64,000 nucleotides of DNA from Antedon mediterranea. Its lineage: Eukaryota; Echinodermata; Crinoidea; Comatulida; Antedonidae. The number at the start of each line of letters is the position of its first letter. Position 1 is the first letter of the stretch. This document shows, piece after piece, positions 15,101-64,000 of the stretch. Below the pieces are notes generated by a model. The model had not been told where the DNA came from, did no database searches, and was given only the letters and a program-made list of their open reading frames with translations. Position numbers and translations under genes: made by a program. The DNA lies in the NCBI RefSeq assembly GCF_964355755.1, contig NC_092673.1, forward strand, positions 6,453,001 through 6,517,000, read 5' to 3'.

Positions 15101-16159
15101 CGCCTAGTGGAAAACAGTCTTTATGAAACTTGAAGTTCAGGATAAAACTGGGTAATTAAATTGGATTTTTAATGGTTCTCGGTCTGGATTTAGCAGGCTT
15201 GAACAGAGACTGGTAATTTGGGACTGATATAATATATAAAAGGATGATAATTCTATGCAAATCAAGTTTTTTTTGTTCAGGCCAGCTGAAATGATCTATT
15301 ATATTATCCCTTGACCAGATTAATTTTACTTGGCCCAACGGAATAGATTTTTAAAAATTGAGAAGATACAGGTTTGAAATCGCTACATCTATGTCACCAA
15401 TCGGTTATGATTAATCAATTGACGTTGGTGGCGCTTGTGAATTCACTCACTTTGTTCTGTAACATTTGCTCTTGACAATACTGGCTGGTTATGCTGAATT
15501 TTCGCAAAAATTTTGTAACCCCCCGAACTTAATCTCTCAACTTCAATGCCAGGTATACAATTAAACAATTCTTGTAAACTTGAAAAACTCAATTTGTTGT
15601 AATCTATCATGTAACCATATTCATCGTTGAAAAGTGTTGGAAAATTTGATCCGTGAATTCCATTTGTAAACGAAGCGAGAAGTTCTTTTATTTCAAATTG
15701 TAAATGCGAAGGTACCACAGGTTTGTTCACCGGTTTAACTTGTTTCGGTTTACTGTCATAACTTGAATTTTGTCTTGTGCTAAAACTTGAGTTATTATAC
15801 ACTGGTACGGGCCTTCTGCTGGGGTTTTTTGGCGGTGCAGTAATTTTAGAAGTTCCGCCACGCTTTCTTGTGTCAATTTTCTGCCTCATCACCATTTTCT
15901 GTATGTGTCGAGTTGTGTCGTCACATATGCCCATAACTTTCATCTGACCACGATCCCATACAGGTTTTACAACGTCCTTCATGTCTCGAAATAGTTCACT
16001 CGCACTGTCATAGCCTAACTTCTGGTACGGCAACCTGTAGCCCATTACCGCCTGAAAATCCTCCTCAACTTGCCTGACAGTTAGGCCCAAAGGTGCTGAA
16101 ATGAGTAGGGCTCGCACTAACTTCTTAACATCCTCTTTTAATGCCGCTTTATCAGTCAT
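115..16159 (-). CDS. TDRD5: Tudor domain-containing protein 5-like (LOTUS x4 + Tudor), 21 coding exons
   Basis: Seen: an ATG at 16159 opens a 236-residue exon. Splicing 21 exons with GT-AG sites and compatible phases gives one 1285-aa frame ending at TGA 117-115. LOTUS/OST-HTH modules lie at about residues 5-78, 152-220 and 266-337, with a fourth LOTUS-like stretch at 363-441. An extended Tudor domain follows at about 470-640, with core NWHRAII then VKYVDYGTV and the later DTSTEEDIHINDVL stretch. The C-terminal 300 residues are rich in Pro, Asn, Gln and Tyr, with repeats of the type PNVRPNMQ. Family knowledge: TDRD5 is a germ-granule protein of the piRNA pathway; LOTUS domains bind Vasa-type helicases or RNA, and Tudor binds dimethylarginine. 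The order of domains and the Tudor exons fit TDRD5 rather than TDRD7, which has three Tudors. Odd points: a fourth LOTUS-like module, where vertebrate TDRD5 is usually annotated with three, and a longer C-terminus. The 3' UTR runs past the left edge. Germline expression is inferred. Confidence 0.93.
1459..1515. repeat. 24-bp direct duplication in TDRD5 intron 20
   Basis: A 24-bp sequence beginning CATCAGCTTAAGTAGGCATA occurs at 1459-1482 and again at 1492-1515, a 33-bp period. It lies just downstream, in transcript sense, of the exon 20 donor and includes the read-through stop. No function is evident. Confidence 0.7.
2391..2505. mobile_element. MITE family A, copy 1 (TDRD5 intron)
   Basis: Terminal motif GTCTACACTATCAAACTT, then the internal signature TGTGATGTGCC, an ATGATGATGTCAT core and the inverse TTTGGGCACATCAC arm, ending near AACTAGTTTGATG. 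The same layout recurs at six other places in the window. Short and non-coding, so a non-autonomous DNA element is inferred. Confidence 0.7.
2787..3996. mobile_element. Probable DNA-transposon remnant with CAGGGATGTCACCA ends
   Basis: The left end reads CAGGGATGTCACCA (from about 2787) and the right end TGGTGACATCCCTA (to about 3996), which are inverted repeats. Sub-terminal GGTCGGC and GCCGACC motifs lie at both ends. The CAGGG terminus resembles hAT elements, but no clear 8-bp target duplication is visible and no transposase frame survives. It sits in intron 18 of the TDRD5-like gene. Confidence 0.5.
2829..2873. repeat. G16 / C12 homopolymer tracts
   Basis: A run of 16 G (2829-2844) is followed by CGGGG and a run of 12 C (2858-2869) then GGGG. 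Such runs can form quadruplex or hairpin structures and are also prone to assembly error, so the exact lengths should be treated with caution. Confidence 0.75.
5806..5873. repeat. Four tandem 17-bp units containing AGGTCA
   Basis: The unit GCTGAACCAGGTCAAAG starts at 5806, 5823, 5840 and 5857 without interruption, inside a TDRD5 intron. Each unit contains the AGGTCA half-site bound by many nuclear receptors. Whether this matters is unknown; it may simply be a minisatellite. Confidence 0.85.
8232..8398. mobile_element. MITE family C, copy 1
   Basis: Left half contains AATTGGGAACATTTGTAGTC and AAAGATTCGTT. The right half ends with CCCAATCGAATACGAC, the inverse of the GTCGTATTCGATTGGG end of the copy at 16598-16804. 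It lies between exons 12 and 13 of the TDRD5-like gene. Non-coding. Confidence 0.55.
9320..9460. mobile_element. MITE family A, copy 2, abutting a splice donor
   Basis: Ends are CCGTCCACACTATCACATTT and GATAATATAGACACAGCTTAA, with the family's GTGATGTGCCC and GATGATGTCA interior. Its right end touches the GTAGGC donor (minus strand, 9466-9461) of TDRD5 exon 11, so intron 11 begins six bases before the element. Confidence 0.75.
12277..12320. mobile_element. MITE family A, solo end
   Basis: Only one arm is present, reading TTTTTGTCACATAAAGTTTG followed by ATAGTGTAAACAGGGCTTTAG. It matches the right end of full family A copies and lies in a TDRD5 intron. Confidence 0.6.
13481..13782. mobile_element. 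MITE family D, decayed copy
   Basis: The left end reads GCACTTGCCAATTGTATGAC then CCACTATACGACCCCGAGAG and GGTGCGTCAT, matching the intact copy at 21297-21631. The interior keeps GTGCGTCA-type motifs. The right end (GGACAAATGCATAAAGTTGAC) is degraded. It lies in a TDRD5 intron between exons 3 and 4. Confidence 0.65.
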
Positions 16160-16422
16160 GATTCTGATATGTTCGTCTTAGAATTGTGATTTAAAAAAAT
16201 GAAAATTACGCTACGATTAAAGGATGTTTATAACAAATCTTGTGAGAAACATTTCAAGAAGCACATGTAAAATTGTCACACGGATTCTTTTTTATAATCA
16301 TAAAAAAGGTTATGACGATACGGTCGAGTGCACACCAGGTCAGGCACGTGTTTTTATAGAGGGCGACATAGTCATTTTCTATTATATCGAAGAGAATCCG
16401 TCCAATTGCACTCTTGATTTGA

Positions 16423-21200: not shown

Positions 21201-22515
21201 CAAAATCAGAAGTCCAAATTTAGACTAGAAAATAGAAGATGGCATTAATTGTACATACTTGATTATACTTGCTCATGCGTTGTACGATGGTAGTAATGCA
21301 CTTGTCAATTGTATGACTCACTATACGACCCCCGGGAGAGGTGCGTCATGGGTGCGTCATTTACAAATAATTACTGACGCAGGGGTGCGTCAAAAAACCT
21401 ATATGGTACGTCACATCAATGAACAAGGTATGTCCGTCACTTTACCACCCACCATATCATAAACAACATGGTCACAGTGCGTCAAAATGGGTGCGTCATG
21501 GTCACCTAAAGGTAAGTCACCTTTTTGACGCACGGGTGCGTCATGGTATTCAAAAGTATGACGCACATCGGACAAATGACGCACCTCTCCCGGGGGTCGT
21601 ATAGTGGGTCATACAATTGACAAGTGCATAATAAAACTTACTTTTTGTTACTCCTTTTTTCTCTTTTTTGTCCTCCTCATCTTTCGATACCTCTTCTTTT
21701 GATTCATCTTTCTTTGACTTGTTCAGATCTTTTTTAACTGGTGGAGAACCATGGGAATGACCGTGACCACCTTTGACTAACCGGACAAACTTCTCAACGA
21801 CCAGGAAAGCAACAATGCCGCCAAGGACCCAAAGACCTACGGACATGTCATGCGCATGGCCCTCTGAATCATGCGAATGTTCATGATGGCTGTGTCCATG
21901 ATCATCGCCACCATGACTATGTGGATTGACGGCGTGTGGAATGAGGTGCAGAAAAGCATCTCCGAGAAGACCTCCAGAAGCAAAGGCAAGCAGCACTTTC
22001 AGAAGAGGTCCTTGTGCGTTGCTCTGGTCCAGTGGAATCACAAAGAGTATGGCAAATGGTGCAGCACTTATCAAGACAGTAGCGCCGATAGCCTGCCACC
22101 ACATTGTGGCAGTGTCTCTATCTGGTTTTCTTGGTTCCTCTTCATGGTGATGGTGTTCTTCTGGGTCATGCTTAATGGCTGGCTCTGATTGTTGTGTAGG
22201 TGGTTCAGCAATTGGAGGGGGAGCATTAGCTTCTTTTGAATATCTATTTTTTGTTGCTTGTTTGGGGTCTGCATCATGCCCATGTCCGCCGTGTCCACCG
22301 TGACTGTGCCCACCGTGACTGTGACCGTGGCCTTCGCCATGGCTGTGAGCATGCCCGCCTCCGTGGCTGTGAGCGTGCCCGCCTCCGTGGCTGTGAGCGT
22401 GTACGCCGTGGCCTCCGTGAGAATGACCATGGCCTAGCACAAAACTAGCAACGCAAAGTCCAATAAAAACAAAACTGACGAACCGAACGGTAGATAAATT
22501 ACCAACAGACGGCAT
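18252..22515 (-). CDS. SLC39A7: Zinc transporter ZIP7-like (SLC39A7/KE4), three coding exons, 448 aa
   Basis: Exons 22515-21642, 19279-19062 and 18506-18252 join in phase (GTAAGT and GTAAGC donors) to give 448 aa, close to vertebrate ZIP7. Seen: an N-terminal signal-like hydrophobic stretch (residues 1-28), then a luminal His/Gly-rich tract of HSHGG-type repeats, a transmembrane helix after TATMWWQ, a helix with [11 protein letters not shown], a second His-rich loop, a Lys/Glu-rich loop, HNFTDG, and the LIV-1 signature HEVPHEIGD in exon 2. The last exon encodes the final hydrophobic helices. Family knowledge: ZIP7 releases zinc from the ER/Golgi to the cytosol and is gated by CK2 phosphorylation. 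The HEVPHEIGD metal-site residues are intact. Intron 1 begins five bases from a family D MITE. ER localisation and direction of transport are inferred from the family. Confidence 0.95.
19369..19516. mobile_element. MITE family A, copy 5, best preserved
   Basis: Begins TTAAGCTCTGTCTACACTAT and ends GATAGCGTAGACAGAGCTTA plus A, near-perfect inverted repeats. The interior carries GTGATGTGCCCAAATATGGT and the inverse GGGCACATCAC. It lies in intron 1 of the ZIP7-like gene and serves as the reference copy. Confidence 0.88.
19835..20098. mobile_element. MITE family B, copy 2
   Basis: Starts GGCCCATTTACACTAGGACG and ends CGTCCTAGTTTAAATGGGCC. The interior has ATGACGTCAT at 19982-19991. TTAA-like bases flank both sides, so the target duplication could be TA or TTAA and cannot be fixed. 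It lies in intron 1 of the ZIP7-like gene. Confidence 0.8.
21297..21631. mobile_element. MITE family D, intact copy with arms over 50 bp
   Basis: The left arm starts GCACTTGTCAATTGTATGAC and continues through CTATACGACCCCCGGGAGAG. The right arm is its inverse, ending GTCATACAATTGACAAGTGC. The interior is a series of GTGCGTCA / TGACGCAC motifs. It ends about five bases from the GTAAGT donor of ZIP7 exon 1, and an unspliced read of that exon runs into it. Confidence 0.85.
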
Positions 22516-25500
22516 TTTAATATGAACTGGTTGTTTAAATTCCTAGTTAATTAATAATCCTGTCAACACCCAATTTGTTATTTCAACAAGAGCCCTCGAT
22601 CAATCACTCACTCTCTCGGCACAAAAAAGTGGTAAATACACGTGGCATGAAATAGAGGGCGGCAGACAGGATTTTAAATCAATCATACGTGTTTCAAAAC
22701 GACTTACCGGTTTACCGTATTATGTATTACTGTACAGTATTATGTTTTGAAAAGTTAGTTAGCCCAACTGGTAAAAAGTATGTAGCCTATGATCTTTCAC
22801 ATGAATTTTCGCGGATATAGTACCAGTATGTCTCAATCACTGGAGGCCGTTTTGGAATCATAATTTGTTTGACCTATCTATCTATTTCCTTGTAAATTAA
22901 ATGCCTTTTTAATATTAATTATATTTTCACTAATTTCATTCAATCTCGATATTATCTCAAATAACTTGAAAAACTTATATATCTCAGTGTATTGCTAGGA
23001 TCACAAACAAGGCAGTGAGCATGAGTATTGGTTCCCTATGTTTAGACACAACTAATGTCATGCGGATGCAACCGAAGAGCTCAGTTACAAAGTAAAGTAG
23101 GACACTACAGCACTTTATCCAACAATTGTTAAATGTAGTGCGTTAACATAATTTTCTTTAAATATAATGTATGTCACTTAAAAATTGCAAGAATGCATGC
23201 ATTAAAAAAATAATCACAAATATTCACGTGTTACTTGCATGTGGCAAGCAAAGAGGGAGAACATGTCTTTTATAATTGATATTGTTTTTAATAATACAAG
23301 AACATATACAAATTATGTGTGTCGAATGTTTTTAGAGAAAAGAGAGAATATATAACGTAAATAAAATAAAAGAAAAAAAACACAGTAGGCTATTCAATTT
23401 AAAGAAATTGTTGTATTATTTAAAGAAAAATATCGTTCAAATTAATTATCATAAACAATTGCGTGATTCATATCGTCAGTTTAATTTTCGAGTAGGCTAT
23501 AAAACCAATAATGACATGCGAAAACGTAAGACAGGTTAAATATACATTTTCTAGTTTGTGGAAAATGATAATTAATAAAGTAAAGTAAAAGTCATAAAAA
23601 AGTAGAAAATATGGATCTTTTACTTACTTATGCATGATTTGATTTGACCTTATACATTGTTTTATTGGGTTAGAAACTTAATTGTTCCCCTTTTGGCTAC
23701 TAGATTGAACACACTCTCTAAACCTCATTGACTTATCATCTCCTACACTTACCTATTTTAATGTATTTTGTATTACCAACACTCAGGCTATAGTACAATG
23801 GAGCTGTTTTAACATTATCATTATCATCGAAGAGCAGAGGCCGGATTTATCGAACTTGCTTAGAATAAAAGAAATCGTCTTATGCTAACAACTATAGCAG
23901 TTTCACGAATAAGCCTATATTGCTTTGGCGGTTCTTACTATTTTAGTTAAGCAACAATATAAGACAATAAAATACCAACTCAGAAAACTTTTGTAAACTA
24001 AAATAAAACAAGTAGGGTTCTCTTCCCTGGTATATCATTATCTTTCTTTTCTCACTCTAAATGTGGTTGGAGAAAAAATGTAACTAGCTAACACCATACA
24101 TTCTCATTGCTACCATTTCCATACCGATCCGAGTATTTTCATTTAAGTTTCGAGGCAAATGTTATTTTATTAGAGTTATTAGAGTATTTCTTTTTAATAT
24201 ATTATTTTCTTTCTAAAGCCAAATATAAATTAATATTGTTCTTCTCTTGTAGATTTTCTTTAAATAACTAGAAACACAAATTCACAGAGATTCATACGGA
24301 AATTGTGCACGTTTTTGTTTATTAAAAGATTCACATTTATTGTATTGGCACATTATTAAAATAGGCATAAGATTAAAACTAGGTCCAGGGCCTAGACTAG
24401 GGCTACTTACTTCTATTAAAGAAAGCATAGGGACCGAGTGATTTTTATTCGGAATCGGAAGAATTACCGAGAAAGGGTCAAACCTAGCCCTTCCTAAAAT
24501 TGAGATCCTGCCGTTTCCTCTCCTGTTTTTTGCCATATTTATTATGTATTCCACTGTTAGCAGGTACATGTTAGGACATTTTGGTAGACTAAGCCCTTTT
24601 TGACAATTTAAAAATGAAACACTAGTAGGCCTACTTATTTTTTTTAGCATAGGCCTACTGATAAAATGATAGATGGAATTTCGAATACTGTATCCTGGCA
24701 ACCATGGAACATTTCGACCGCGTATATAGAACAAAAAGATGCATTTCGAACATGTGAACGCACACGCGCTCAAAATCATCTATATAAGCAGCGCATCGAT
24801 CACCTAAAAATCGACAACAACTTGAGATTTCTCTCTCTACCAGTTGTTTTTAACGTGCTGTATAGTATTCACATAACGTATTGCTAAGCAAGTTTCGAAT
24901 TCGAAAACATTCACACGAAGAAGAAGGGTAGGCCTAACTAGGCCTCCTAGTAGGCAGGCTTTTTAATGTTTTTAGGACTTTCTAAAAAACAAAGAGTTTG
25001 TTTTACCAATAATACATAGGCCTAGGCTAGGCTTAGTTTAGGTAGGCCTAGACTATAGCCTAGAGGCTATAGATAGGCTAGGCTACTCTAGCCTCTAGGC
25101 CTTAAATAAACTAACCTAAGGCTAAGCCTTTTATTTTAGTTTTAGTTAGACCATATCCTTTTCATTTAGGACCTACCTACTAGGCCTACCTAGGCTGAAC
25201 TACTACAACAATAGCCTAGTTACCATAAGCTAGCTAAATGCTACTTCTATTAAAATAGGTAGGCATTTACAGTAAGCTATGGCCGTAGGGCCTAGACTAC
25301 AGTAACTCTTTGAGTCTTGGTTCTCCCTGTAGTAGTAGTAGTAAGCCTCTAGGCCTAGTAGTAGTAGTAGTATCAGTACTAGTAGGTAGACAGCTTACGT
25401 AAGTTCTAACTAAGTACCACACACAAGACTAGCTTTAGTTGTAGACCTACCAAGCTAGCAGAGGAGCTTATTCTTGCAGTTGTGCTAAACAGCGCATAGC

Positions 25501-25642
25501 GACTATTTTGTATTTTGCGCTATATTAATTTAAAACCATTATTAAACCATTAACTATTATCGGTACTACTACTACTACTACTAGCCTATTTAAATTATTA
25601 TTAAATAATTAATGTGAATTATATATTTTTTCAATTAAGTAG
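22516..25642. other. Gene-poor interval between ZIP7 and the kinase
   Basis: Holds the presumed ZIP7 promoter side and AT-rich DNA. From about 24.9 to 25.4 kb it is dense in AGGCCTA and CTAGGC motifs of no known role, with short TAG/CTA trinucleotide runs near 25330-25376 and 25567-25582. An open frame of 165 codons at 24282-24779 (minus) has no recognisable domain and is treated as chance. Confidence 0.6.
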
Positions 25643-27125
25643 ATCTCAACAAGATGCACACCAGCAAGCAAGAAGAAAGTCAGTATTTACAAGGATTTGG
25701 ACAGCTGTGCTTCATCTTCTTTGCATAAGAGGAATTGACGAATCATCGGATAGCAACTTAAGTTCGTCATCGTCATTATTATCATCATCATCACCATCTA
25801 TATTATTGCAACCAGCGGGCACAGTGTCGGCATCGCTGTCAGGGGTACAAGAAGTATCAGTACGACAGGTATCATCAAAGTCTCTATCAAAGTCATCAAG
25901 ATCACATTCGTCTATGTGGCCAATGTCATCCACATCGTTTGCGCTTTCTCCTAGCCAGATACTTACCACACCAGGTCTATCACCCGGGGAGGTGATTCTC
26001 CCAAGGCAACATGTTTGTAGCTCATCCTCATCATCTACCGCTCCGGTCCAGCGCATTTTTAGAAAACCAACATCAGAGTTATCACCCGGTGAGATACCAG
26101 AAAGGAAAGGTCTTTGTAGTGTGCCATCATCGTTGTCGTCACAATGGCCATTGTCACCTGCCAGTAGCTTCAATGGTTCTTCCCGTTCTTTGAAAAGTAA
26201 CACTACCACTTCAGCACCCATATCCGTCTTTAACGATAGAGATGCTACAACAAAACTTGCTGAAATTCTGCCGCCTGCTCGGTTATTAGATAGTTCAAGT
26301 GTAACCGACCTTTGTAATCCTGTACGCCTTGGACAGGGAAGTTTTGGTCGTGTTGACCTGATGTCATCCAATCTTTTGCCAGGCCACTATCACCTTGTCG
26401 CCGTCAAGACGGCTTTTTTGAACAATTACAGCAATCCTGATGAAGCATGGGGCAAGATGGTAGTAGAAGCGCGTGTTATGAAATTTTTAGACGATCTTCC
26501 ATCTGTTCCTCGAGTCTTTGGCGTCTTTCGCCAAGGTGACGTATGCTGCATGATACAGGAGTTTATCGGAAATACCTTCACCCTTTCCAGCACCACCTTC
26601 CTGGATGTATTGCTAACCGGGCAGCCGTCCTTGAGCGCGCTTGAATGTATCTCTATGACATCAGAGGTTGTCATTGCGCTCAACGACATGCACAAACGTG
26701 GGATTCTCCACAACGACGTAGCTGCGAGAAACATCCTGATCCACCACGCTGGAACCAGCTACAGAGCGAAGCTTACAGACTTCGGGATGGCATGCAGAGT
26801 ACAATATCCAAGAGCACATAGAGAGTTAACCTTTTCATCGTTGGACGAACTACTCCAATACAATCAGGATCATCCGGAGGTAGCACCAGAAAAATACCTT
26901 GACGGTGCTTGTGATTCTGTTAACGGTGACGTGTATTCCATCGGTTATGGTATACGTATTGTAGGAGTGGCAATTAGAAGCAGCGAGATGGTTGAACTTG
27001 GAAAGTCTTGTACATCTTTCGACGCAGAAGATCGACCATCTCTAGATTGGGTAATCAACATCTTGGACATCATTAAAGAAAATGAAAAGAGCAATCCAAC
27101 ATGCCGGGGTATCAATGGCCCTTAG
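25643..27125 (+). CDS. Ser-rich protein kinase with HND catalytic loop, large single exon
   Basis: Numbering here counts from GTG at 25614, where the open frame starts. There is no ATG there; a TTTTTTCAATTAAGTAG acceptor ends at 25642, so either an upstream exon supplies the start or translation begins at ATG 25914 (M101). Residues 40-200 are Ser-rich with two LSPGE motifs. The kinase domain spans about 235-490: glycine loop GQGSFGRV 240-247, VAVK with K265, helix-C E285, catalytic H366-N367-D368 then N373, DFG 389-391, APE 424-426 and helix-F D439. All catalytic residues are present, but the usual HRD Arg is Asn (HNDVAARN). The C-lobe after APE is short, about 78 residues. HxDxAARN is tyrosine-kinase-like, yet the specificity cannot be assigned. 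Stop TAG at 27123. I do not recognise the family; a lineage-specific kinase or retrogene is possible. Confidence 0.8.
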
Positions 27126-29955: not shown

Positions 29956-30987
29956 CTAACACCTACTATCGTGTGTTTTGTTACTCATTTGTAAAACTAA
30001 TTCGTCTGTAGTGTTAGTAGAGCGATTCCCAGTATCCTGAACACTAGAATCTTCAATCACCACTGTTTGGCGGAAACAACATGATTTTTCATTCGTGCAA
30101 CACCCGAACAATTCCGAAATTCCTTCTCGGAAATCCGGCAACCTTCGCCAATATATAACCGGATTCACCGCGGAGTTTAGCAATATCATTGCAACGCCAA
30201 TGTAGAAAACCAAACTCGACACTATACAACGATCCTCTTCCTCAAAGCCATAGTACATTGTGAACATAATGCGAAGAGATTCAATTGCCCATGGCAACCA
30301 GCAAATAGCGTAAACCACCACTATTACAACATACGCCCTTAACACAAGTTTTGTATACTTATAGTTACCTCCTCGGTTCAATCTAGCGGACATTCGTTTA
30401 TCATGTGAATGTATTTTTATAAATATTGAAAAGTAAAGTATTGAAATCCCAATCATTATTACAACAATGCACAGAGGACCAAGAGTGAAAAATATAACTC
30501 GATGTAGGATATAGTCATAGAACGAAATTGGTAAAAGAACTGATGACGTTATCAACCACATGATGACGGAAATGCTTAGAAGTTGACGCGTTGTTCCGAT
30601 GTGAGTTTTGCTACTGTTGGTGAATACGACGATCTTGAGAAATCGTTCGGCAGCGATTGCGAGGATCGTAAAACCCGAGACAATGCCGACAATCAGTCCG
30701 ATGCTCTCCATATAGGTTTTGTTGAAAATCACAATACAGGGGTAAATTATACCGGCCATTAAGTCCGTTAGTGCTAAGTTAAAGATAAGAATATTGCGGC
30801 GTTTATGCAGCCGCTTTACTTTGATGATTGCCGCCAGAATAATTGCATTTTCTACGATAGATAAGATGCATATCAAGAAGAAATAAATTGAAAAGATTGC
30901 CAAGCCTGTATTGCTGCTACCAAAGACACCGGATTCCATAATGTCAACAGGCTCCACTGAGCAGTTTATAACAGCAGTGCGATCCAT
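29956..30987 (-). CDS. Class A (rhodopsin-type) GPCR, intronless, 343 aa
   Basis: One exon from ATG 30987 to stop 29956. Seven hydrophobic segments are visible. Class A marks: N47 in TM1 (ENAII), D75 in TM2 (NLALTD), E114-R115-F116 at the end of TM3 in place of DRY, W144 in TM4, CWLPW 229-233 in TM6 and NPVIY 275-279 in TM7. A Cys pair at 296-297 may be palmitoylated, and N8 (NCS) is a glycosylation site. The extracellular loops are very short, and no Cys is present about 25 residues before R115, so the usual TM3-ECL2 disulphide seems absent, as in melanocortin/lysophospholipid-like receptors. The ligand is unknown; I do not assign a subfamily. Intronless class A receptors are often expanded in echinoderms. 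Plasma-membrane location and G-protein coupling are inferred. Confidence 0.9.
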   Translation of the reverse strand: MDRTAVINCSVEPVDIMESGVFGSSNTGLAIFSIYFFLICILSIVENAIILAAIIKVKRLHKRRNILIFNLALTDLMAGIIYPCIVIFNKTYMESIGLIVGIVSGFTILAIAAERFLKIVVFTNSSKTHIGTTRQLLSISVIMWLITSSVLLPISFYDYILHRVIFFTLGPLCIVVIMIGISILYFSIFIKIHSHDKRMSARLNRGGNYKYTKLVLRAYVVIVVVYAICWLPWAIESLRIMFTMYYGFEEEDRCIVSSLVFYIGVAMILLNSAVNPVIYWRRLPDFREGISELFGCCTNEKSCCFRQTVVIEDSSVQDTGNRSTNTTDELVLQMSNKTHDSRC

Positions 30988-32750
30988 CGTCTTGTCGAAT
31001 TATCTTCCTGTTGAATTGGCCTAAATAGATGATCGAAACATGATAATTAAAAAAACAGAAACTGATACAGCAATGCAACCCACAATTGCCTTTAACAAAA
31101 CATTCATTAGTTTACTTCAAGCAATGCAACCCACAATTCATTAGTTTACTTTATGTTTTAGTAATAATTAAAACACAATTAAAAAAAGCATACACTTTAC
31201 TTTATTGCCATAAAAAAAGTCTGAGAATATAACTGCTACATTCTGCAGTTATGAAATATTATCTACCTGATAACATGTATTACAAGTATTTACTACACTT
31301 AGACTTGTATCTCACTGACTTGCGGTAGTCAGTTAGATAGTATATCGTGAAAGCTGCAGAAATTAAAACGAATACTTATAAATATATTGTATCCAAACAA
31401 CTCACCAGATAGGCAAAAATGATAACCCTTCGGTTTTACAAATTAGAAAAGTTAAACTTTAATTGCATAGTTTTTTTGTTTAAGTCGAATGACCCACGTT
31501 AATCACGAAACTGTAAGAACTAATTAATTGCGAAAATATTTCTCTATCATTTTATAGATGTCCACGCCGGAAAATAGAATTAATCGGTGGATCACTGGTG
31601 TGCATGAAAAATCAAACCGCACACGATATGCCCTTCACAAATAGTTAAAGGATAAACTTTCATCATGTTCAAGGAACTTATTATATTACGACAGTATTAC
31701 TCATGATATACTGAAAGAGGCGCATCACTTTTAACAAAATATTAAAATTTAGCCTAATAATTCCAATGTTACTACACCTTACCAAACATTTAAAACAATG
31801 GTTTTATGCCATATTTTGTTCGTCTATTGGCTTTTACTTATAGTAATTGAAAGTATGATGAAACTTAAGTGAAAGTACGTGGTAGACCCACTTAACACAC
31901 ATAGCCTTGATGATGAGTGGTTTTACGTACGAACTGATGTCATGACTTACTAGCTTCCTAGAGGGATAGGCCTACACAGAATGTAGCTGGCAGTACACGT
32001 TCTAGTACTAGTGATGTTAAGCTAAACTACTGCTCGTTTACCGTCACTTGACCAAGAATCTGGAACAATTTACTAACTAGTTACATTAAACATTTGAATG
32101 ACTATAAACAGCAATACTTTTTATTTTAACTAATGCTATGAATGAAGAGTCGCTGATTCTGAGCTTATCATAAATGGGCGCTATAATGTTAATGTTAGCT
32201 CAACGAATAATAACGGCACTTATTAAATTAAATATCAGTTACATTGTCTCTTTAAAAAAAACAACAAATTGATAGCAACACTTTTTGTGTGTATTTCGAT
32301 TTTCTTTCAATTGATAATGACCCCAATGGGAACTAATTCTTCCTGTAAGGATTAATTTGGTCGCCAATAAAAACAAACATCTGATATTGAACATTTAACT
32401 AACCAGAGGCCTGTAGAATAGAATAATATTATACAATAACAAGTTTTGTTTTTGTCTTTTCTGTTTTTATCCTTGTACATTAAACTTCATATTTTTTTCC
32501 GGTTCAATAACTTTAATTTTTCACAACAACAACTCACGTCAGATTGATGATGATCATCCGGGTATTCCCTCTTTCATGAGTCATAACAGTTCAAGTTCAT
32601 GTATCGAATAAATGATTGGTCAAAATTATCGAGCGTGTTAATAACTAAACCTAATATAAGGTCATGTCCAGTTTTTAAATTATGAATGGGAAAGAAAGCC
32701 GAAGAAAATTTCATTTGGTTTTTTTAATGTCATAATAATGTTCAGAATTT

Positions 32751-33630
32751 AGGCCTAATGATGACGTGCATCTTTAATACACCTCACTGTGTATAATAAT
32801 AGCTCTTTTGACAGCAAGGATAGACAACAAAACTAAACACACACACAAAATATAACATGTAGACCTATTGTAATTTAAAACTATAAAATAGGCCTAATGA
32901 TGACGTGCATCTTTTATACACCTATCTGTGTATATTAATAGCATCATCCTGGTTAGTCTTTTGACAGCAAGGATAGACAACAAAACTAAACACACACACA
33001 AAATATAACATGTAGACCTATTGTAATTTAAAACTATGAAATAGGCCTAATGATGACGTGCATCTTTTATACACCTATCTGTGTATATTAATAGCATCAT
33101 CCTGGTTAGTCTTTTGACAGCAAGGATAGACAACAAAACTAAACACACACACAAAATATAACTTGTAGACCTATTGTAATTTAAAACTATAAAATAGGCC
33201 TGATGATGACGTGCATCTTTTATACACCTATCTGTGTATATTAATAGCATCATCCTGGTTAGTCTTTTGACAGCGAGGATATACACCAAAACAAAACACA
33301 CACACAAAATATGACTTGTAGGCCTAGTGTAGGCCTAATTTAAAACTATAAAATTAGGCCTAATGATGACGTACATCTTTTATGCACTTATCTTCGTAGA
33401 TTAATAGCAACATCCTGGTTAGTCTTTTGACAGCAAGGATATAGACAACAAAACTAAACACAAAACACACGCACAAAATATGACTTGTACTGTAATTTAA
33501 AACTATAAAATTAGGCCTAATGATGACGTGCATCTTTATGCACCTATCTGTGTAGATTAATAGCAACATCATGGTTAGTCTTTTGACAGCGAGGATAGAC
33601 ACCTAAACAAAACACACACACAAAACATAT
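32751..33630. repeat. Tandem array, unit ~139-160 bp, about 5.7 copies
   Basis: Units begin AGGCCTAATGATGACGTGCA at about 32751, 32890, 33043, 33196, 33356 and 33513, so periods are 139, 153, 153, 160 and 157 bp. Each holds CTTTTGACAGCAAGGATA and an ACACACACA tract. Short antisense open frames arise from the repeat and are not treated as genes. Confidence 0.9.
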
Positions 33631-44574: not shown

Positions 44575-47500
44575 ATGGCAAATCTTAAAAATGAGTTTGA
44601 CTACTTGAAATTTGAACTCAGTAAATATTATACTGGTGAACGCTACTCGTGGTTGAAATTTTGCCTTTTCGATAATTTAAGTCTATCAGACCTTACCGAT
44701 AAAGAGTCAACTGGACATACTTTATTCAATGAACTTGAAAGAATACATGTAGTCACAGCTAATGACGTCAACCTACTCTTGGAGATTACTGCGCTAACAG
44801 GTTCAGATGATGCCAGAAAACGTGTAAATCAGTATATTGAAGATAACAACATTCAAAACACAGACAAACACAAGTTGACAACTTATCGTAAACAACTCTT
44901 TAGGGCTGTGAGAGAAGCTGAACCAGTTGCATTAAATAAGGTTACTGCTATGTATAAACTAACTCATCTTAATTTTACCAACCTTTGGGATGTAATATTT
45001 CACCTTGAAACCAACGGAATTTTACCAACCGAAATAGACAAGTTTGGAAGTCTACTTGGAAAACGCGCAGAGAAAGAACTACTAAGTACCGGTAGGCCAC
45101 TGTAAATGTTGTTTTTTTGATTGATAGAATATTTTGTAATATAAAATTGTGAATCTCACACACGAATTGTGTTAACATCATGTGCAACAGATTGCATTAA
45201 GGCATACATTGGTGTTACACCATCGTGATACGTGCGAATGGTTTACCAATCACAAATAAAATGTATTTATAACAGTCCATCGAACGCTTATTATAATTTA
45301 AACATTACCGTATTTGTAAGTCAATGCAATAATTATGGTTAGAATAACGTTTTTATACATTGCCATAACCGCACAACATTACCACATAGATCCACAACAT
45401 TCAAAATAATACCACTAGAATATTCACTAGATATTCCAATAACCTAACGAAAGATTGGAATATTTGATAAATTTAGTCAAAAAACAAAAAACGGTTCGTG
45501 CAACAAACATTTCTTTAGTTAGTAATAATAGTGATGACGATAAAAGTGGCCAAACCTGTCAAAAGTAAAAAAGAAAACAACTGAATATTTGTATAGTAAT
45601 GACGACATCAATAAGCTTCTCACATACAACTATTTAAATTCAGCAGGCTTGCATGGATGTGCCAACGCATTCCGACGTCGCTCCACCATATACCTGCCAT
45701 AAAAACGGTGGGACACGTCGAAATCATATGTATGCGGTTTTCACCTACACATTTACTTAATCGTTCTTATAACGTAATACTGATTAAGTATGGCAAGTAT
45801 TACAGTAGGTAGGGCTCCAATAAAAAACGCTTTAAAGTAAATAAATTAACATAAACACACTTTTTTTCTTTATTCAGATAAAAAAACAAAAAGGGTTCGT
45901 GAAGCAAACATTTCTTCAGGTAGTAATATTGATGACGACGAGATAAGTGACCAAACTTGTCAAAAGAAAAGGAAAATAACTGAAGATTCTTATAGTGATG
46001 ACGACATGAATGCCCAAGCATCTACATCAGCTCATACAGGCCATAAACTAAAGAGAAGACTAAAATACAAATCTGACAAAGGTACAATTGATGACAATTA
46101 CTATATAATTGAAATTAAGGGATCTGCACAATACAATATGTTATTTTTAAATGACGTCGTAATTTTTGATAAGCCAAAATTGTTAATTAATTAATCCTAT
46201 CTAAAATTTATCCGCTTTCATATTAATTTGACGTGCACGTGTGTAAATATTTCACGTTTACAGTTTAGAAAAGGTACGCGCGATGCAAAAAGTTTAATAC
46301 TTTTGAAATGTTCAATATAGCCTGAAACGTGTTCTATAAATTTAGCTTAAGCATTTCCAACAAATGTTTGTCCAGAATGTTTCAATTTCATTTAAAGGAC
46401 ACCAGTCATCTTCTTTACAATAATTAACTTCCACATTTATCTAGTCCACATTGGTCGCTTTCGGACACCGACCTCTTGTACCAACCTGTATCTTCTCGTC
46501 TTCCTTTTACTTTCCATTTCCTTTAAAAAAGAAGGTCCGCATAATCTCAAGATGGGATGAGTCTAGTGTGAATCATTGTCACCATTTTAAAGTTTGTTTA
46601 ATTAATTAATATCGCAATGTTTACAGTTACGAATTGTGTTGTGTGAATATCGTTTACTCTTTATACATTTTAATTAATTTCTAGAAAATGTTGATGAAGA
46701 TAGAGCACCGAAGTCAAAGAAGATAGTTTCGAGAGAAGGTAAAACCATATTTTTGGGCAGGTACATTTTTTCAAATGCGTTATAGCAAGTCAAAGAACAT
46801 TTTTATTTAAATAACGTAAATTATTAAATAATACCTTTCTATAATTACAATTGTTTTTTCTTATATTATAATTGAAAACAAATAGACATGGTAATTTTAA
46901 ATAGGACATTAAAGAAGTCTGTGCACATATGACCTTGTGTAAAAAAGCAACGTTTAGTGGCATGTTTAATACTTTTTCATTAATTTATTTGATTGATTGT
47001 CTTGTTTATATATTATAGAAAAAATCAAAGATTATCTTCTTGATAGACAAAGATTGGTGTGCGGCAATAACAATAAGAAATTTACATCATCAATAATGAA
47101 TAACAATTCTTATTTCAACATTGAAATATTCACTGAATTGAAATTGCTGAAAGAAGATGAGATAAATGGCAGTCAACCAACTACATTACCAACAATGTTA
47201 GATGATATCAAATCCATGCCAGCATGTAGAGTTCTTATATCTGGTGATGCTGGGATTGGTAAAACAACATTATTAAGGTACTTGGCATACAGTTCAACTC
47301 TTGGAAAACCAATTGCATTTGAAGGTAAAATTGTATTTTTCTTGAATGTTAAAGATTTAGAAAAAGGGCAAGACATCTTTGATTTGATTGAAACACAACT
47401 TGATATGAACGATTTTACTAGAAAGACAAAGCTTCCAAGAGATGATCCATTGTTAATTCAAAGATTTATTGATCAAAATGACAGCAAGATTGTGTTGTTA

Positions 47501-50500
47501 TTAGATGGATTGGATGAAATCAGTTTTGAGAATAAAAGCTTGATAAATCTTTTCACAAAGAACACATTGGGAAATAGTGTTGTGCTGCTAACATCCCGAT
47601 CAGATAACTTAAAATGTTTAGATAAATTTAAAATGATGTGTGACTTGCATGTTAGAGTGAGTGGATTTGATAAAAATAGCATTAGAAAATACATTGACAA
47701 ATTTTTTAATCATTTTGGAAAAGCCGAATTTGGAAAATCACTTAGGCGGAAATTGGAGCTTGACGAGAAAAAAACTACAATTGACCGCAGTCATTCAGAA
47801 GCATCTGTATTGTGTAAAAATCCATTATTACTACTTTCAATTTGTCTTTCCTGGATAGAAAACAGACGTCTTCCTTATAGTGAGTCTGATCTGTTCAAAG
47901 AATTTTTTCTTTGCCTATTTAACCAATTCAATAAAACTAAAAAAAAAAAGTTTACTAAATTTGAAGATGCTCCATCAGAATATGTAAATGCTATGCTTTT
48001 GTTAGGGAAGTGTATGTGTAATTCTGTCTTAACGTTAGCTAAACTTTCAATAAGCAAACATGATTTGGAAGCATCGACAGAAGACCAAGGGTTGATTGAT
48101 CTAGCCTTAAAACTTGGATTTGTTTCTAAAATGTCACCGATTTCAAAAAAACCCACAAGTGATATGTACATACCTCCGCACAACTTGATAGGGGAATCAT
48201 TGGTGGGATTCTACTTATACAAACTTTATAACAATGAAACGTCGAATGAATGCACAAAGCATGAAAGACAGTTACTTAAGCCATTGAATGAAAATGAATG
48301 GAAGGTAATAAGAGAACGTAGGAGATTTAAGAAGGTAAATATGTTTGTAGTAGGGTATCTTGGTGGAGATGCTGGTAAATTTTTGAGATATTGGGTTACA
48401 AATAAATTTTCAACATATCGTTCTTTAGGTATTTACTTAAACTGTGTTAGAAAATCCGATCTGAAAGTAGTGAATACATTCTTGGAACCATACACAAACA
48501 GCGCGACGTTAAACCACACTCATGTATCTAACTCTTTAAAACAAGGTATTTCCTACTTTAATCGAAACTCTGAAGTAGCTTTAGGCGAAGATTTTACAAA
48601 TCTTATCAGGCAATTTTATAGCATGGATTTGAGCAAACTTGATTTGAGAACTTTTTTAAATGAATTATCAACATATGATAATCCTCAAAAAGGAAAGATT
48701 CTGGCCCACATTGTTTACTTTTTCACCTTTCAACTTGACTTAAGTAATTGTGGCATATCAGGTGATGTAATGAATGATATGATTAGAGAGTGTTCTAAAA
48801 TGGGTGGTGAACTGGAATTATACAATCTTAAAATCAGAAATAATAATTTGAGCAACATTAAAGCTACATTAATGAATTCTTTGATTAGGATGTCTCCTTT
48901 TTGTCGTCTATTTGATATAAGTAATTGTAATCTATCAGGTCAAGTAATGAATGATATCATTAGGTGTGATAGAGAAGCTGTGCTGAACATAGTCATCCTC
49001 AGAATCAATGACAACAACCTAAGTGACATTGATGGTACATTACTGGGTAGTTTCTTGAGTAAGTTCCCTAGGTTGATTTCACTTCAAATGAGGGATTGTA
49101 AAATTTCAGCTGACGTAATGAATGACATGATAAGAGTGTGTGCAGGAAAAAAATTAAAGTTACAAGTGTTTGATATTAGGGGTAATGATTTACGTGGCAT
49201 TAATGGCTCCTCACTTGGTACTTTCTTGAGTAAATCCCCTAAACTACTCAAACTTCATATGGGTAGTTGCAAATTATCAGGTACCGTAATGAATGACATG
49301 ATCAGAGTGTATGCAGAAGATAAGTTAGAATTACAAGACATTTATATGTGGAATAACGATTTAAGTGGCATTAACGGTTCCTCACTTGGTACTTTCTTGA
49401 GTAAATGTCCTAAACTACTCAAACTTCATATGGGTAGTTGCAAATTATCAGGTACCGTAATGAATGAAATGATCAGAGTGTATGCAGGCGATAAGTTAGA
49501 ATTACAAGAGTTTATTATTAGTGATAATGATATCAGTGACATTAATGGCTCCTCACTTGGTACTTTCTTGAGTAAATCTCCTAAACTACTCAAACTTCAT
49601 ATGAATACTTGCAAATTATCAGGTACCGTAATGAATGACATGATCAGTGTGTATGCAGAAGATAAGTTAGAATTACAAGAAATTTATATGTGTAATAACG
49701 ATTTAAGTGGCATTAATGGTTCCTCACTTGGTACTTTCTTGAGTAAATCTCCTAAACTACTCAAACTTGGCTTGCCTACTTGCAAATTATCAGGTACCAT
49801 AATGAATGAAATGATCAGTGTGTATGCAGAAGATAAGTTAGAATTACAAGAGTTTATTATTAGTGCTAACGATTTAAGTGGCATTAACGGTTCCTCACTT
49901 GGTACTTTCTTGAGTAAATGTCCTAAACTACTCAAACTTCATATGGGTAGTTGCAAATTATCAGGTACCGTAATGAATGAAATGATCAGAGTGTATGCAG
50001 GCGATAAGTTAGAATTACAAGAGTTTATTATTAGTGATAATGATATCAGTGACATTAATGGCTCCTCACTTGGTACTTTCTTGAGTAAATCTCCTAAACT
50101 ACTCAAACTTCATATGAATACTTGCAAATTATCAGGTACCGTAATGAATGACATGATCAGTGTGTATGCAGAAGATAAGTTAGAATTACAAGAAATTTAT
50201 ATGTGTAATAACGATTTAAGTGGCATTAATGGTTCCTCACTTGGTACTTTCTTGAGTAAATCTCCTAAACTACTCAAACTTGGCTTGCCTACTTGCAAAT
50301 TATCAGGTACCATAATGAATGAAATGATCAGTGTGTATGCAGAAGATAAGTTAGAATTACAAGAGTTTATTATTAGTGCTAACGATTTAAGTGGCATTAA
50401 TGGTTCCTCACTTGGTACTTTCTTCAGTAAATGTCCTAAACTACTCAAACTTCATATGGGTAGTTGCAAATTATCAGGTACCGTAATGAATGAAATGATC

Positions 50501-53500
50501 AGCGTGTATTCAGGAGATAAGTTAGAATTACAAGAGTTTATTATTAATGCTAACGATTTAAGTGACATTAATGGTTCCTCACTTGGTACTTTCTTGAGTA
50601 AATCTCCTAAACTACTCAAACTTGGCTTGCATACTTGCAAATTATCAGGTTCCGTATTGAATGACATGATCAGTGTGTATGCAGAAGATAAGTTAGAATT
50701 ACAAGAAATTTATATTTGGAATAATGATTTGAGTGGCATTAATGGTTCCTCACTTGGTACTTTCTTGAGTAAATCTCCTAAACTACTCAAACTTCATATG
50801 GATACTTGCAAATTATCAGGTACCATAATGAATGAAATGATCAGAGTGTATGCAGGAGATAAGTTAGAATTACAAGAGTTTATTATTAATGCTAACGATT
50901 TAAGTGACATTAATGGTTCCTCACTTGGTACTTTCTTGAGTAAATCTCCTAAACTACTCAAACTTGGCTTGAATACTTGCAAATTATCAGGTACCATAAT
51001 GAATGACATGATCAGTGTGTATGCAGAAGATAAGTTAGAATTACAAGAGATTTATATTTGGAATAATGATTTGAGTGGCATTAATGGTTCCTTACTTGGT
51101 ACTTTCTTGAGTAAATCTCCTAAACTACTCAAACTTCATATAAATACTTGCAAATTATCAGGTACCGTAATGAATGACATGATCAGAGTGTATGCAGGAG
51201 ATAAGTTAGATTTACAAGAGTTTATTATTAGTGGTAATGATTTAAGTGACATTAATGGTTCCTCACTTGGTACTTTCTTGAGTAAATGTCCTAAACTACT
51301 CAAACTTCATATGGGTAGTTGCAAATTATCAGGTACCTTAATGAATGAAATGATCAGAGTGTATGCAGGAGATTTGTTAGAATTACAAGAGTTTATGATT
51401 AGTGCTAACGATTTAAGTGGCATTAATGGTTCCTCACTTGGTACTTTCTTGAGTAAATCTCCTAAACTATTCAAACTTGGCTTGCATACTTGCAAATTAT
51501 CAGGTTCCGTATTGAATGACATGATCAGAGTGTATGCAGAAGATAAGTTAGAATTACAAGCAATTTATATTTCGAATAATGATTTAAGTGGCATTAATGG
51601 CTCCTTACTTGGCACTTTCTTGAGTAAATCTCCTAAACTAATCAAACTGCATATGAATACTTGCAAATTATCAGGTACCGTAATGAATGAAATGATCAGA
51701 GTGTATGCAGGAGATATGTTAGAATTACAAGATTTTATTATTAGTGATAATGATATTAGTGACATTGATGGCTCCTTACTTGGCACTTTCTTGAGTAAAT
51801 CTCCTAAACTAATCAAACTGCATATGAATACTTGCAAATTATCAGGTACCGTAATGAATGAAATGATCAGAGTATATGAAGGAGATATGTTACAATTACA
51901 ATATTTTAGTATTAGTAATAATGATATTAGTGACATTGATGGCTCCTTACTTGGCACGTTCTTGAGTAAATCTCCTAAACTAATCAAACTGCATATGAAT
52001 ACTTGCAAATTATCAGGTACCGTAATGAATGAAATGATCAGAGTATATGAAGGAGATGTGTTAGAATTACAAGATTTTATTATTAGTGATAATGATATTA
52101 GTGACATTGATGGCTCCTTACTTGGCACTTTCTTGAGTAAATCTCCTAAACTAATCAAACTGCATATGAATACTTGCAAATTATCAGGTACCGTAATGAA
52201 TGAAATGATCAGAGTATATGAAGGAGATATGTTACAATTACAATATTTTAGTATTAGTAATAATGATATTAGTGACATTGATGGCTCCTTACTTGGCACG
52301 TTCTTGAGTAAATCTCCTAAACTAATCAAACTGCATATGAATACTTGCAAATTATCAGGTACCGTACTGAATGAAATGATCAGAGTATATGAAGGAGATG
52401 TGTCAGAATTACAAGAAATTCATATTTGGAATAATGATTTAAGTGACATTAATGGCTCCTTACTTGGCACTTTCTTGAGTAAATCTCCTAAACTAATCAA
52501 ACTGCATATGAATACTTGCAAATTATCAGGTACCGTAATGAATGAAATGATCAGAGTGTATGCAGGAGATATGTTAGAATTACAAGAATTTATTATTAGT
52601 GATAATGATATTAGTGACATTGATGGCTCCTTACTTGGTACTTTTCTGAGTAAATCGCCTAAAGTGTTGAAACTTGGCTTGAGTACTTGCAAACTATCAG
52701 GTAATGTAATGAATGAAATGATCAGAGGGTATACAGGAGATATGTTAGAATTACAATATTTTAGTATTAGTAATAATGATATCAGTGACATTAATGGCTC
52801 CTTACTTGGTACTTTCTTAAGTCAATCTCCTAAACTACTCAAATTGTATATGAATACTTGCAAATTATCAGGTAATGTAATGAATGAAATGATCAGAGTA
52901 TATGAAGGAGATGTGTTAGAATTACAAGAATTTATTATTAGTGATAATGATATCAGTGACATTGATGGCTCCTTACTTGGCACTTTCTTGAGTAAATCTC
53001 CTAAACTAATCCAACTGCATATGAGTACTTGCAAATTATCAGGTACCGTAATGAATGAAATGATCAGAGTGTATGCAGGAGATATGTTAGAATTACAAGA
53101 ATTTATTATTAGTTATAATGATATTAGTGACATTGATGGCTCCTTACTTGGTACTTTTCTGAGTAAATCGCCTAAATTGTTGAAACTTGGCTTGAGTACT
53201 TGCAAACTATCAGGTAATGTAATGAATGAAATGATCAGAGGGTATACAGGAGATATGTTAGAATTACAATATTTTAGTATTAGTAATAATGATATCAGTG
53301 ACATTGATGGCTCCTTACTTGGCACTTTTCTGAGTAAATCACCTAAATTGTTGAAACTTGGCTTGAGTACTTGCAAGCTATCAGGTAATGTAATGAATGA
53401 AATGATCAGGGTGTATACAGGAGATATGTTACAATTACAATATTTTAGTATTAGTAATAATGATATCAGTGACATTAATGGCTCCTTACTTGGCACTTTC

Positions 53501-54463
53501 TTGAGTAAATCTCCTAAACTAATCAAATTGTATATGAATACTTGCAAATTATCAGGTACCGTAATGAATGAAATGATCAGAGTGTATGCAGGAGATATGT
53601 TAGAATTACAAGAATTTATTATTAGTGATAATGATATTAGTGACATTGATGGCTCCTTACTTGGCACTTTCTTGAGTAAATCTCCTAAACTAATCCAACT
53701 GTATATGAGTACTTGCAAATTATCAGGTACCGTAATGAATGAAATGATCAGAGTGTATGCAGGAGATATGTTAGAATTACAAGAATTTATTATTAGTGAT
53801 AATGATATTAGTGACATTGATGGCTCCTTACTTGGCACTTTCTTGAGTAAATCTCCTAAACTAATCCAACTGTATATGAGTACTTGCAAATTATCAGGTA
53901 CCGTAATGAATGAAATGATCAGAGTGTATGCAGGAGATATGTTAGAATTACAAGAATTTATTATTAGTGATAATGATATTAGTGACATTGATGGCTCCTT
54001 ACTTGGTACTTTTCTGAGTAAATCGCCTAAATTGTTGAAACTTAACCTGAATAATTGCAAACTATCAGGTAATGTAATGAATGAAATGATTAGTGTGTAT
54101 GCAGGAGATAAGTTAGAATTACAAGAGTTTAATATTGGTAATAATGATATCAGTGACATTAATAGTAATTTACTTGGTACTTTCTTGAGTAAATTTCCTA
54201 AACTACTAAAACTTGGCTTGCATTCTTGCAAATTGTCAGGTAATGAAATGAATGAAATGATTAGAGTATATGAAGGAGATACGTTAGAACTACAAGAGCT
54301 TTATATTAGTAATAATGATATCAGTGACATTGATGTATCCTTACTTGATACTTTCTTAAGTAGATTGCTTAAACTGCGTAAAGTGTACATGAACAATTGT
54401 TCATTATCAAAAAGTGTGACCATTGGTTTGTGTTCAGTGAGGGAAATAGAATTCTTTACATGA
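44575..54463 (+). CDS. NLR immune receptor: tandem DED - NACHT - giant LRR array, 2739 aa
   Basis: Exons 44575-45091, 45878-46081, 46685-46738 and 47019-54463 all join in phase 1. Start ATG 44575 follows a T-rich tract and opens the first domain. Residues 6-88 and about 102-170 look like two death-effector domains (helix-rich, LFNELERIHVV and LWDVIFHLETNGIL). Exons 2-3 encode a charged linker with basic KKRK and KLKRRLKYK clusters. NACHT: Walker A GDAGIGKTT 334-342, Walker B LLLDGLDE about 418-425, sensor TSRSD 450-454. From about residue 830 to the end there are LRRs: one and a half diverged units, then units of exactly 57 residues from 929 to 2695 and a 44-residue cap. Family knowledge: NLRs are cytosolic sensors that oligomerise through NACHT and signal through death-fold domains. 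DED suggests recruitment of caspase-8/FADD-type partners (inference). No transmembrane segment is seen. Confidence 0.93.
45478..45615 (+). pseudogene. Decayed duplicate of NLR exon 2 in intron 1
   Basis: The segment aligns without gaps for about 90 bases to the start of exon 2 (45878 onward), sharing GGTTCGTG, CAAACATTTCTT, GTAGTAAT-like, GATGACGA and TGTCAAAAG. It has an in-frame TAA right after the TGTCAAAAG codons and no proper acceptor (TTTAGTCAAA). It is a dead tandem exon copy. Confidence 0.85.
49028..54460 (+). repeat. 31 exact 171-bp LRR units plus a terminal partial unit
   Basis: Counting from the Ile codon of the I(N/D)GS(S/L)LGTFLSK motif, unit 1 starts at 49028 and unit 32 at 54329. 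The distance is 5301 bp, exactly 31 x 171. Each unit is 57 aa and carries two LRRs, one around PKLLKLxxxxCKLSG and one around LELQEFxIxxNDISD, matching the alternating 28/29-residue layout of ribonuclease-inhibitor LRRs. Units 3-5 (49370-49882) and 6-8 (49883-50395) show no difference by eye. Units 28 and 29 are also near-identical. Confidence 0.95.
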
Positions 54464-63501: not shown

Positions 63502-63532
63502 GTATGACAACTATCACTTCATTCTATATATA

Positions 63533-64000
63533 TGCCTGTCTGTGTATGCCTGTCTGTGTATGCCTGTCTGTGTATGCCTGTCCGTGTATGCCTGTCCGTG
63601 TATGCCTGTCCGTGTATGCCTGTCCGTGTATGCCTGTCCGTGTATGCCTGTCCGTGTATGCCTGTCCGTGTATGCCTGTCCGTGTATGCCTGTCCGTGTA
63701 TGCCTGTCCGTGTATGCCTGTCCGTGTATGCCTGTCCGTGTATGCCTGTCCGTGTATGCCTGTCCGTGTATGCCTGTCCGTGTATGCCTGTCCGTGTATG
63801 CCTGTCCGTGTATGCCTGTCCGTGTATGCCTGTCCGTGTATGCCTGTCCGTGTATGCCTGTCCGTGTATGCCTGTCCGTGTATGCCTGTCCGTGTATGCC
63901 TGTCCGTGTATGCCTGTCCGTGTATGCCTGTCCGTGTATGCCTGTCCGTGTATGCCTGTCCGTGTATGCCTGTCCGTGTATGCCTGTCCGTGTATGCCTG
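63533..64000. repeat. 14-bp minisatellite running off the right edge
   Basis: About 33 units of TGCCTGTCCGTGTA begin 30 bases after the exon 3 donor at 63501. The first few units have CTG in place of CCG, so a single variant has spread through the remaining units. The true length is unknown because it reaches the edge. Confidence 0.95.

Follow-up and report, generated by a model that had tools for sequence, protein, structure and literature searches.

How can one exon hold about sixty-six leucine-rich repeats (LRRs) in units that never change in length, and what kind of protein would carry them? These questions were raised by a locus of the crinoid Antedon mediterranea, which lies in the window analysed here, i.e., the whole stretch of 64,000 nucleotides.

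Gene model and anatomy of the array

Based on splice sites and phases, four exons were predicted at 44575-54463 of the forward strand, and these encode a protein of 2,739 aa; all the exon junctions in the predicted splicing are of phase 1 (Table 1). The last exon lies within an ORF at 46997-54463 (+) that is open for 2,488 codons, with zero internal stops. The NACHT domain scored 65 bits against PF05729, for a cut-off of 26.7, and the C-terminal LRR domain was recognized by Pfam LRR_4 with an E value of 1.5e-62. The other high Pfam matches on the array, BetaGal_gal-bd, RH_dom, MuF_C, and Lactococcin among them, were discarded as repeat-driven noise. Exon 1 matched Pfam DED with an E value of 1.6e-4, which is below the Pfam cut-off, and a single DED was seen by sequence. 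An AlphaFold2 model of this exon, built on an alignment with 20 paralogous exons, reached a pLDDT of 94.1, and its top Foldseek matches were all tandem death effector domains (tDED) of caspase-8 or cFLIP, with TM values of ~0.7-0.75; in the predicted structure, the two six-helix DEDs pack as in caspase-8. The features by which NLRs are recognized were found in the gene: a NACHT with Walker A and B motifs, C-terminal LRRs, and, through the predicted splicing, an N-terminal death-fold effector. Collectively, this makes it probable that the product is a cytosolic NLR-type sensor composed of a tDED, a NACHT ATPase, and ~66 ribonuclease inhibitor (RI)-type LRRs, in which the turnover of the inner units would vary the binding surface and whose role would be in immunity.

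Intron 1 contains a decayed duplicate of exon 2 (45479-45625) in which changes break the frame, suggesting that the linker exon was once duplicated. Elsewhere, the window contains further domain frames (Table 1) and a 14-bp tandem array at 63531-64000 (33.6 copies, 99%), which runs past the window end and is open in several frames on both strands.

Table 1. Coordinates of the predicted gene, its domains and repeats, and other frames in the window.
Feature	Position	Strand	Basis
Exon 1, tandem death effector domain (tDED)	44575..45091	+	ATG start; donor GT and phase consistent
Exon 2, charged linker with KKRK stretch	45878..46081	+	AG/GT borders, phase 1, frame kept; predicted
Exon 3, short linker	46685..46738	+	AG/GT borders, phase 1
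Exon 4, giant last exon: NACHT and all LRRs	47019..54463	+	7,445 bp open; TGA stop 54461-54463
NACHT domain	47231..47710	+	Pfam PF05729, E 7.4e-18
Walker A GDAGIGKT	47243-47266	+	Motif
Walker B LLLDGLDE	47495-47518	+	Motif
Leading LRR pairs (two, of 57 aa each), diverged but in phase	48707..49048	+	Fixed 171-bp grid
Indel-free LRR-pair array: 62 LRRs in 31 units, each of exactly 171 bp	49049..54349	+	TRF; fixed grid; MAFFT
Recent duplication of about three units	49354..50400	+	534 bp identical at 513-bp lag
C-terminal half unit/cap	54350..54460	+	Fixed 171-bp grid
OST-HTH/LOTUS domain frame	15446-16177		
ZIP zinc transporter frame	21553-22542		
Protein kinase frame	25605-27122		
Rhodopsin-type receptor frame	29959-30999		

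The sequence-only reading had described 31 units of exactly 171 bp that hold their phase with no indel, and this was borne out. TRF returned a period of 171 at 49114-54362, with 30.7 copies, 89% matches, and 0% indels, and the MAFFT alignment of the 31 units comprised 171 columns and 0 gaps; a gap-free periodicity of this kind is far beyond chance. On the fixed 171-bp grid, pairwise DNA identity among units ranged from 68 to 100%, and 28 of the 31 are unique. Units 4-5 and 7-8 share 100% DNA identity and units 6 and 9 share 99%, the 171-aa block being identical; units 18 and 20 are also identical, and the exact repeats within the array measure 534, 308, and 297 bp. When the diverged leading units are included, 33 full units are in phase across 48707-54349, i.e., ~66 LRRs, and the half unit comes after them in the same open exon, in agreement with the number first proposed. 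The motif count gave 64 anchors, with spacings that alternate between 28 (31 times) and 29 (30 times) residues. This alternation of strand-helix repeats is that of RI-type LRRs, and it upholds the earlier description of the 57-aa unit as a 28+29 ribonuclease-inhibitor pair.

The AlphaFold2 model of 18 units (49220-52297) showed 36 regular strand-helix repeats with a pLDDT of 91 and a pTM of 0.67, and placed the strands at residues 11-15 and 40-44 of the unit. The best solved structural match was ribonuclease inhibitor (Z 30.9, rmsd 5.8 over 448 residues), and the LRRs of NLRP3, NLRP14, and NOD2 were among the matches. The solenoid that had been expected was recovered as a regular predicted fold. 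At this pTM the overall shape of the superhelix is uncertain; 66 LRRs would make several turns if the curvature were close to that of ribonuclease inhibitor.

The paralogue family and the growth of its arrays

A NACHT search of the 354-Mb genome, in which the studied gene is on a 36-Mb contig, gave 103 scored NACHT exons. At least 15 of them are in open frames of at least 2,000 aa, the largest of 3,822 aa, and the studied gene is the ninth by open-frame size. These giant frames ruled out that the array is unique or the longest in its genome; the giant sensor is one member of a family and no lone oddity. The giants are of two kinds, one with two-LRR units of 57 or 58 aa (the studied gene, many on C7, and one more on C4) and one with four-LRR units of ~119 aa. 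The longest exact runs were 47 units (57 aa each) in C7_6849 and 39 in C7_6882, and in two paralogues the whole array is made of 174-bp units with 0% indels, indicating the array-wide spread of a three-base change. Many NACHT exons have similar tandem-DED exons 2-9 kb upstream.

Some family members may be dead. C7_6760 (C7:6752801-6762200) has an intact array of 33 units of 174 bp and a frameshift between NACHT and array, near an AACCT tandem duplication at ~2,680 on the minus-strand reading of that interval, and this could be a recent pseudogene, a sequence error, or an intron. The paralogue at C7:6904301-6913500 has ~20 units followed by a stop, with 4.3 more units ~1 kb downstream, and is a truncated receptor. 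At C10:13659901-13663500, a tandem-DED exon precedes a 681-aa LRR frame by ~0.6 kb and no NACHT intervenes; this is a possible DED-LRR receptor without the ATPase. Candidates for tandem-DED-like exons numbered 416 genome-wide, many of them in C3 20-25 Mb and C4 16-20 Mb, outside the listed NACHT matches, and the latter are perhaps a large separate tDED family.

Nearest neighbours of the units were compared in ten paralogues of the 57-/58-aa kind. Inner units were mostly closest to units within their own gene (31 of 32 in the studied gene), and the leading units, together with some of the trailing ones, were closest to the unit at the same position in a sister gene, with up to 99% identity. C7_6849 and C7_6788 share 90% identity in the part that precedes the LRRs, yet they contain 47 and 30 exact units, respectively. 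In the studied array, all four combinations were present in 89 of 190 informative site pairs (four-gamete failure). The affinity of inner units to their own gene and the conservation of end units by position indicate that the arrays grow in their middle part, through unequal exchange and conversion, between end units that stay fixed as caps.

The constant unit length had been attributed to recent growth by unequal exchange plus selection for the intact frame. The exchange and the selection held; the recency of the array as a whole did not. Between units, the mean divergence per site is 0.21 for synonymous and 0.12 for non-synonymous changes, and with ~21% synonymous divergence the array as a whole is not young. 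Only some duplications are recent, i.e., the 534-bp match at a lag of three units and the identical units 18 and 20. At the structural positions of the unit, pN was near 0 versus a pS of 0.21. Two non-coding tandem arrays in the window, one of them a 153-bp array of 5.3 copies at 32804-33629, were used as indel controls and showed 0.23 and 0.75 indels per substitution, at a divergence from consensus of ~4% versus 9% in the LRR array. For the exact unit length, selection on the frame and on the geometry of the solenoid is a better explanation than recency.

Variation of the concave face and alternative explanations

The residues predicted to point outward from the strands (11, 13, 15, 40, 42, and 44) had a pooled pN of 0.24-0.40, versus 0.02-0.11 for the inward residues 12, 14, 41, and 43. 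At the ten exposed LxxLxLxx sites of the studied gene, pN was 0.310 and omega 1.56, versus 0.082 and 0.36 elsewhere, omega here being obtained from pairwise counts on recombining units and not from a formal codon test. The excess of pN at concave sites was observed in each of the ten paralogues, with permutation p values between 0.00005 and 0.038, and outside these sites omega was 0.25-0.62 in nine of the ten genes. The 31 units contain 23 different concave combinations. This pattern fits a diversification of the binding face and suggested diversifying selection. A somewhat unlikely alternative is relaxed constraint, under which the solenoid needs its core alone and the exposed strand residues drift. 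It would account for a pooled pN/pS of just 1.29 at seven concave sites and for concave omega values below 1 in three paralogues (0.61, 0.68, and 0.97). However, in the other seven of the ten concave omega exceeded 1, up to 2.7, as it did in the studied gene, and far less variation was seen at the other non-strand positions, of which many are on the helix side and presumably exposed.

The array itself could be an assembly artefact, with repeats expanded or collapsed by the assembler, and the long exact repeats inside it (534, 308, and 297 bp) give this some ground, tandem repeats being named as a known source of assembly error in the title of PMC6868369. It is nonetheless very improbable, since 28 of the 31 units are unique, the similarity among them is structured, and independent long arrays are present at 14 or more other loci; a 5.3-kb array would also be shorter than usual long reads. 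A further reading, also very improbable, takes the gene for a dying or non-coding copy, untranslated or decayed, and its array for a minisatellite. One paralogue is indeed frameshifted upstream of an intact array, and a decayed exon 2 duplicate lies at 45479-45625, but 2,488 codons stay open here, all splice phases fit, pN at structural positions is near 0 against a pS of 0.21, and the nearby non-coding arrays do contain indels. As for function, the receptor may distinguish self from non-self (allorecognition) and not sense pathogens, like the fungal het-d/het-e NLRs; the repeat-grown NLRs of Podospora with high internal conservation act in this way (PMC12222747). We give this reading a small probability, as the large number of paralogues is just as compatible with pathogen sensing.

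Comparison with known receptors and proposed working

Animal NLRs such as NLRP3, NOD2, and NLRP14 share with the studied gene the NACHT and the C-terminal RI-type LRRs, but here a tandem DED replaces the PYD or CARD, and ~66 near-identical LRRs are encoded by one exon. Ribonuclease inhibitor, the best structural match, has the same alternation of 28- and 29-residue LRRs, with about a quarter of the repeats of the studied array and unattached to NACHT or DED. Exon 1 is predicted to have the fold of the caspase-8/cFLIP tDED, with 11-17% identity in full-length matches; the tDED is joined to a caspase domain in those proteins, whereas here it is joined to a NACHT-LRR receptor. Echinoderm NACHT families with death or DED N-termini have been described, with 203 NLRs in S. 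purpuratus and 53 in Chiridota heheva, where LRRs were found in only one NLR (PMC8913654), and PMC12222747, citing Hibino 2006, mentions a single case of high internal conservation in an LRR-NLR of a sea urchin. In contrast to these sea urchin and sea cucumber NLRs, the present family includes at least 15 giants, whose units are of two types (57/58 aa and ~119 aa).

Fungal NLRs offer another parallel. Those with high internal conservation (HIC) contain WD40, ANK, or TPR repeats, no LRR having been found in fungal NLRs (PMC4986451). In het-d, het-e, het-r, and the TPR/ANK NLRs, the sensor repeats are likewise near-identical and subject to unequal exchange (PMC4986451, PMC12222747). The HIC threshold of repeats more than 85% identical across at least 100 aa (PMC4986451) is surpassed by the identical 171-aa block of the studied array. 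Fungal HIC NLRs differ in repeat number and have variable surface sites (PMC4986451, PMC12222747); here, repeat number was seen on one haplotype, and the close paralogues C7_6849 and C7_6788 differ in it (47 versus 30 units). The fungal proteins have 10-11 WD repeats, compared with 66 LRRs in the studied gene, which combines DED, NACHT, and LRR and lies outside the HNWD class (het-d/e/r) defined by HET plus WD40. A literature search on NLR repeat number returned nothing specific. New here are the scale (~66 to >100 LRRs), the number of giants, the cap-and-core anatomy, and the concave pattern in ten genes.

Returning to the reading as a sensor, and by analogy with NLR and DED biology, a ligand would be bound by the long concave face of the solenoid. 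Binding would relieve the NACHT, which would oligomerise with ATP, and the clustered tandem DEDs could then start a DED filament to which a FADD/caspase-8-like pathway would be recruited, with cell death or NF-kB signalling as the output. The sequence comparisons support a model in which unequal exchange and conversion multiply and shuffle the inner units of each gene, the end units remain fixed as caps, and selection keeps frame and unit length; amino-acid change focused on the outward concave residues would give each gene a different binding surface. We tentatively propose that the family may use the fast turnover of near-identical LRR units (60 to >100 LRRs) as a germline diversity generator, in which individuals would differ in array length and concave composition, and these would set specificity; such a system would be the animal LRR equivalent of the repeat-grown allorecognition NLRs of fungi.

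These observations address an open question, i.e., how diverse recognition surfaces arise in animals without antibodies. A germline receptor of this type could show new binding surfaces being built by repeat copying, and its fixed caps, exact frame, and binding-face change mean that the proposal can be tested through the number and sequence of the units in different individuals. The family also offers naturally occurring LRR solenoids of regular build, several times the length of ribonuclease inhibitor, and a tandem DED on NLR-type receptors.
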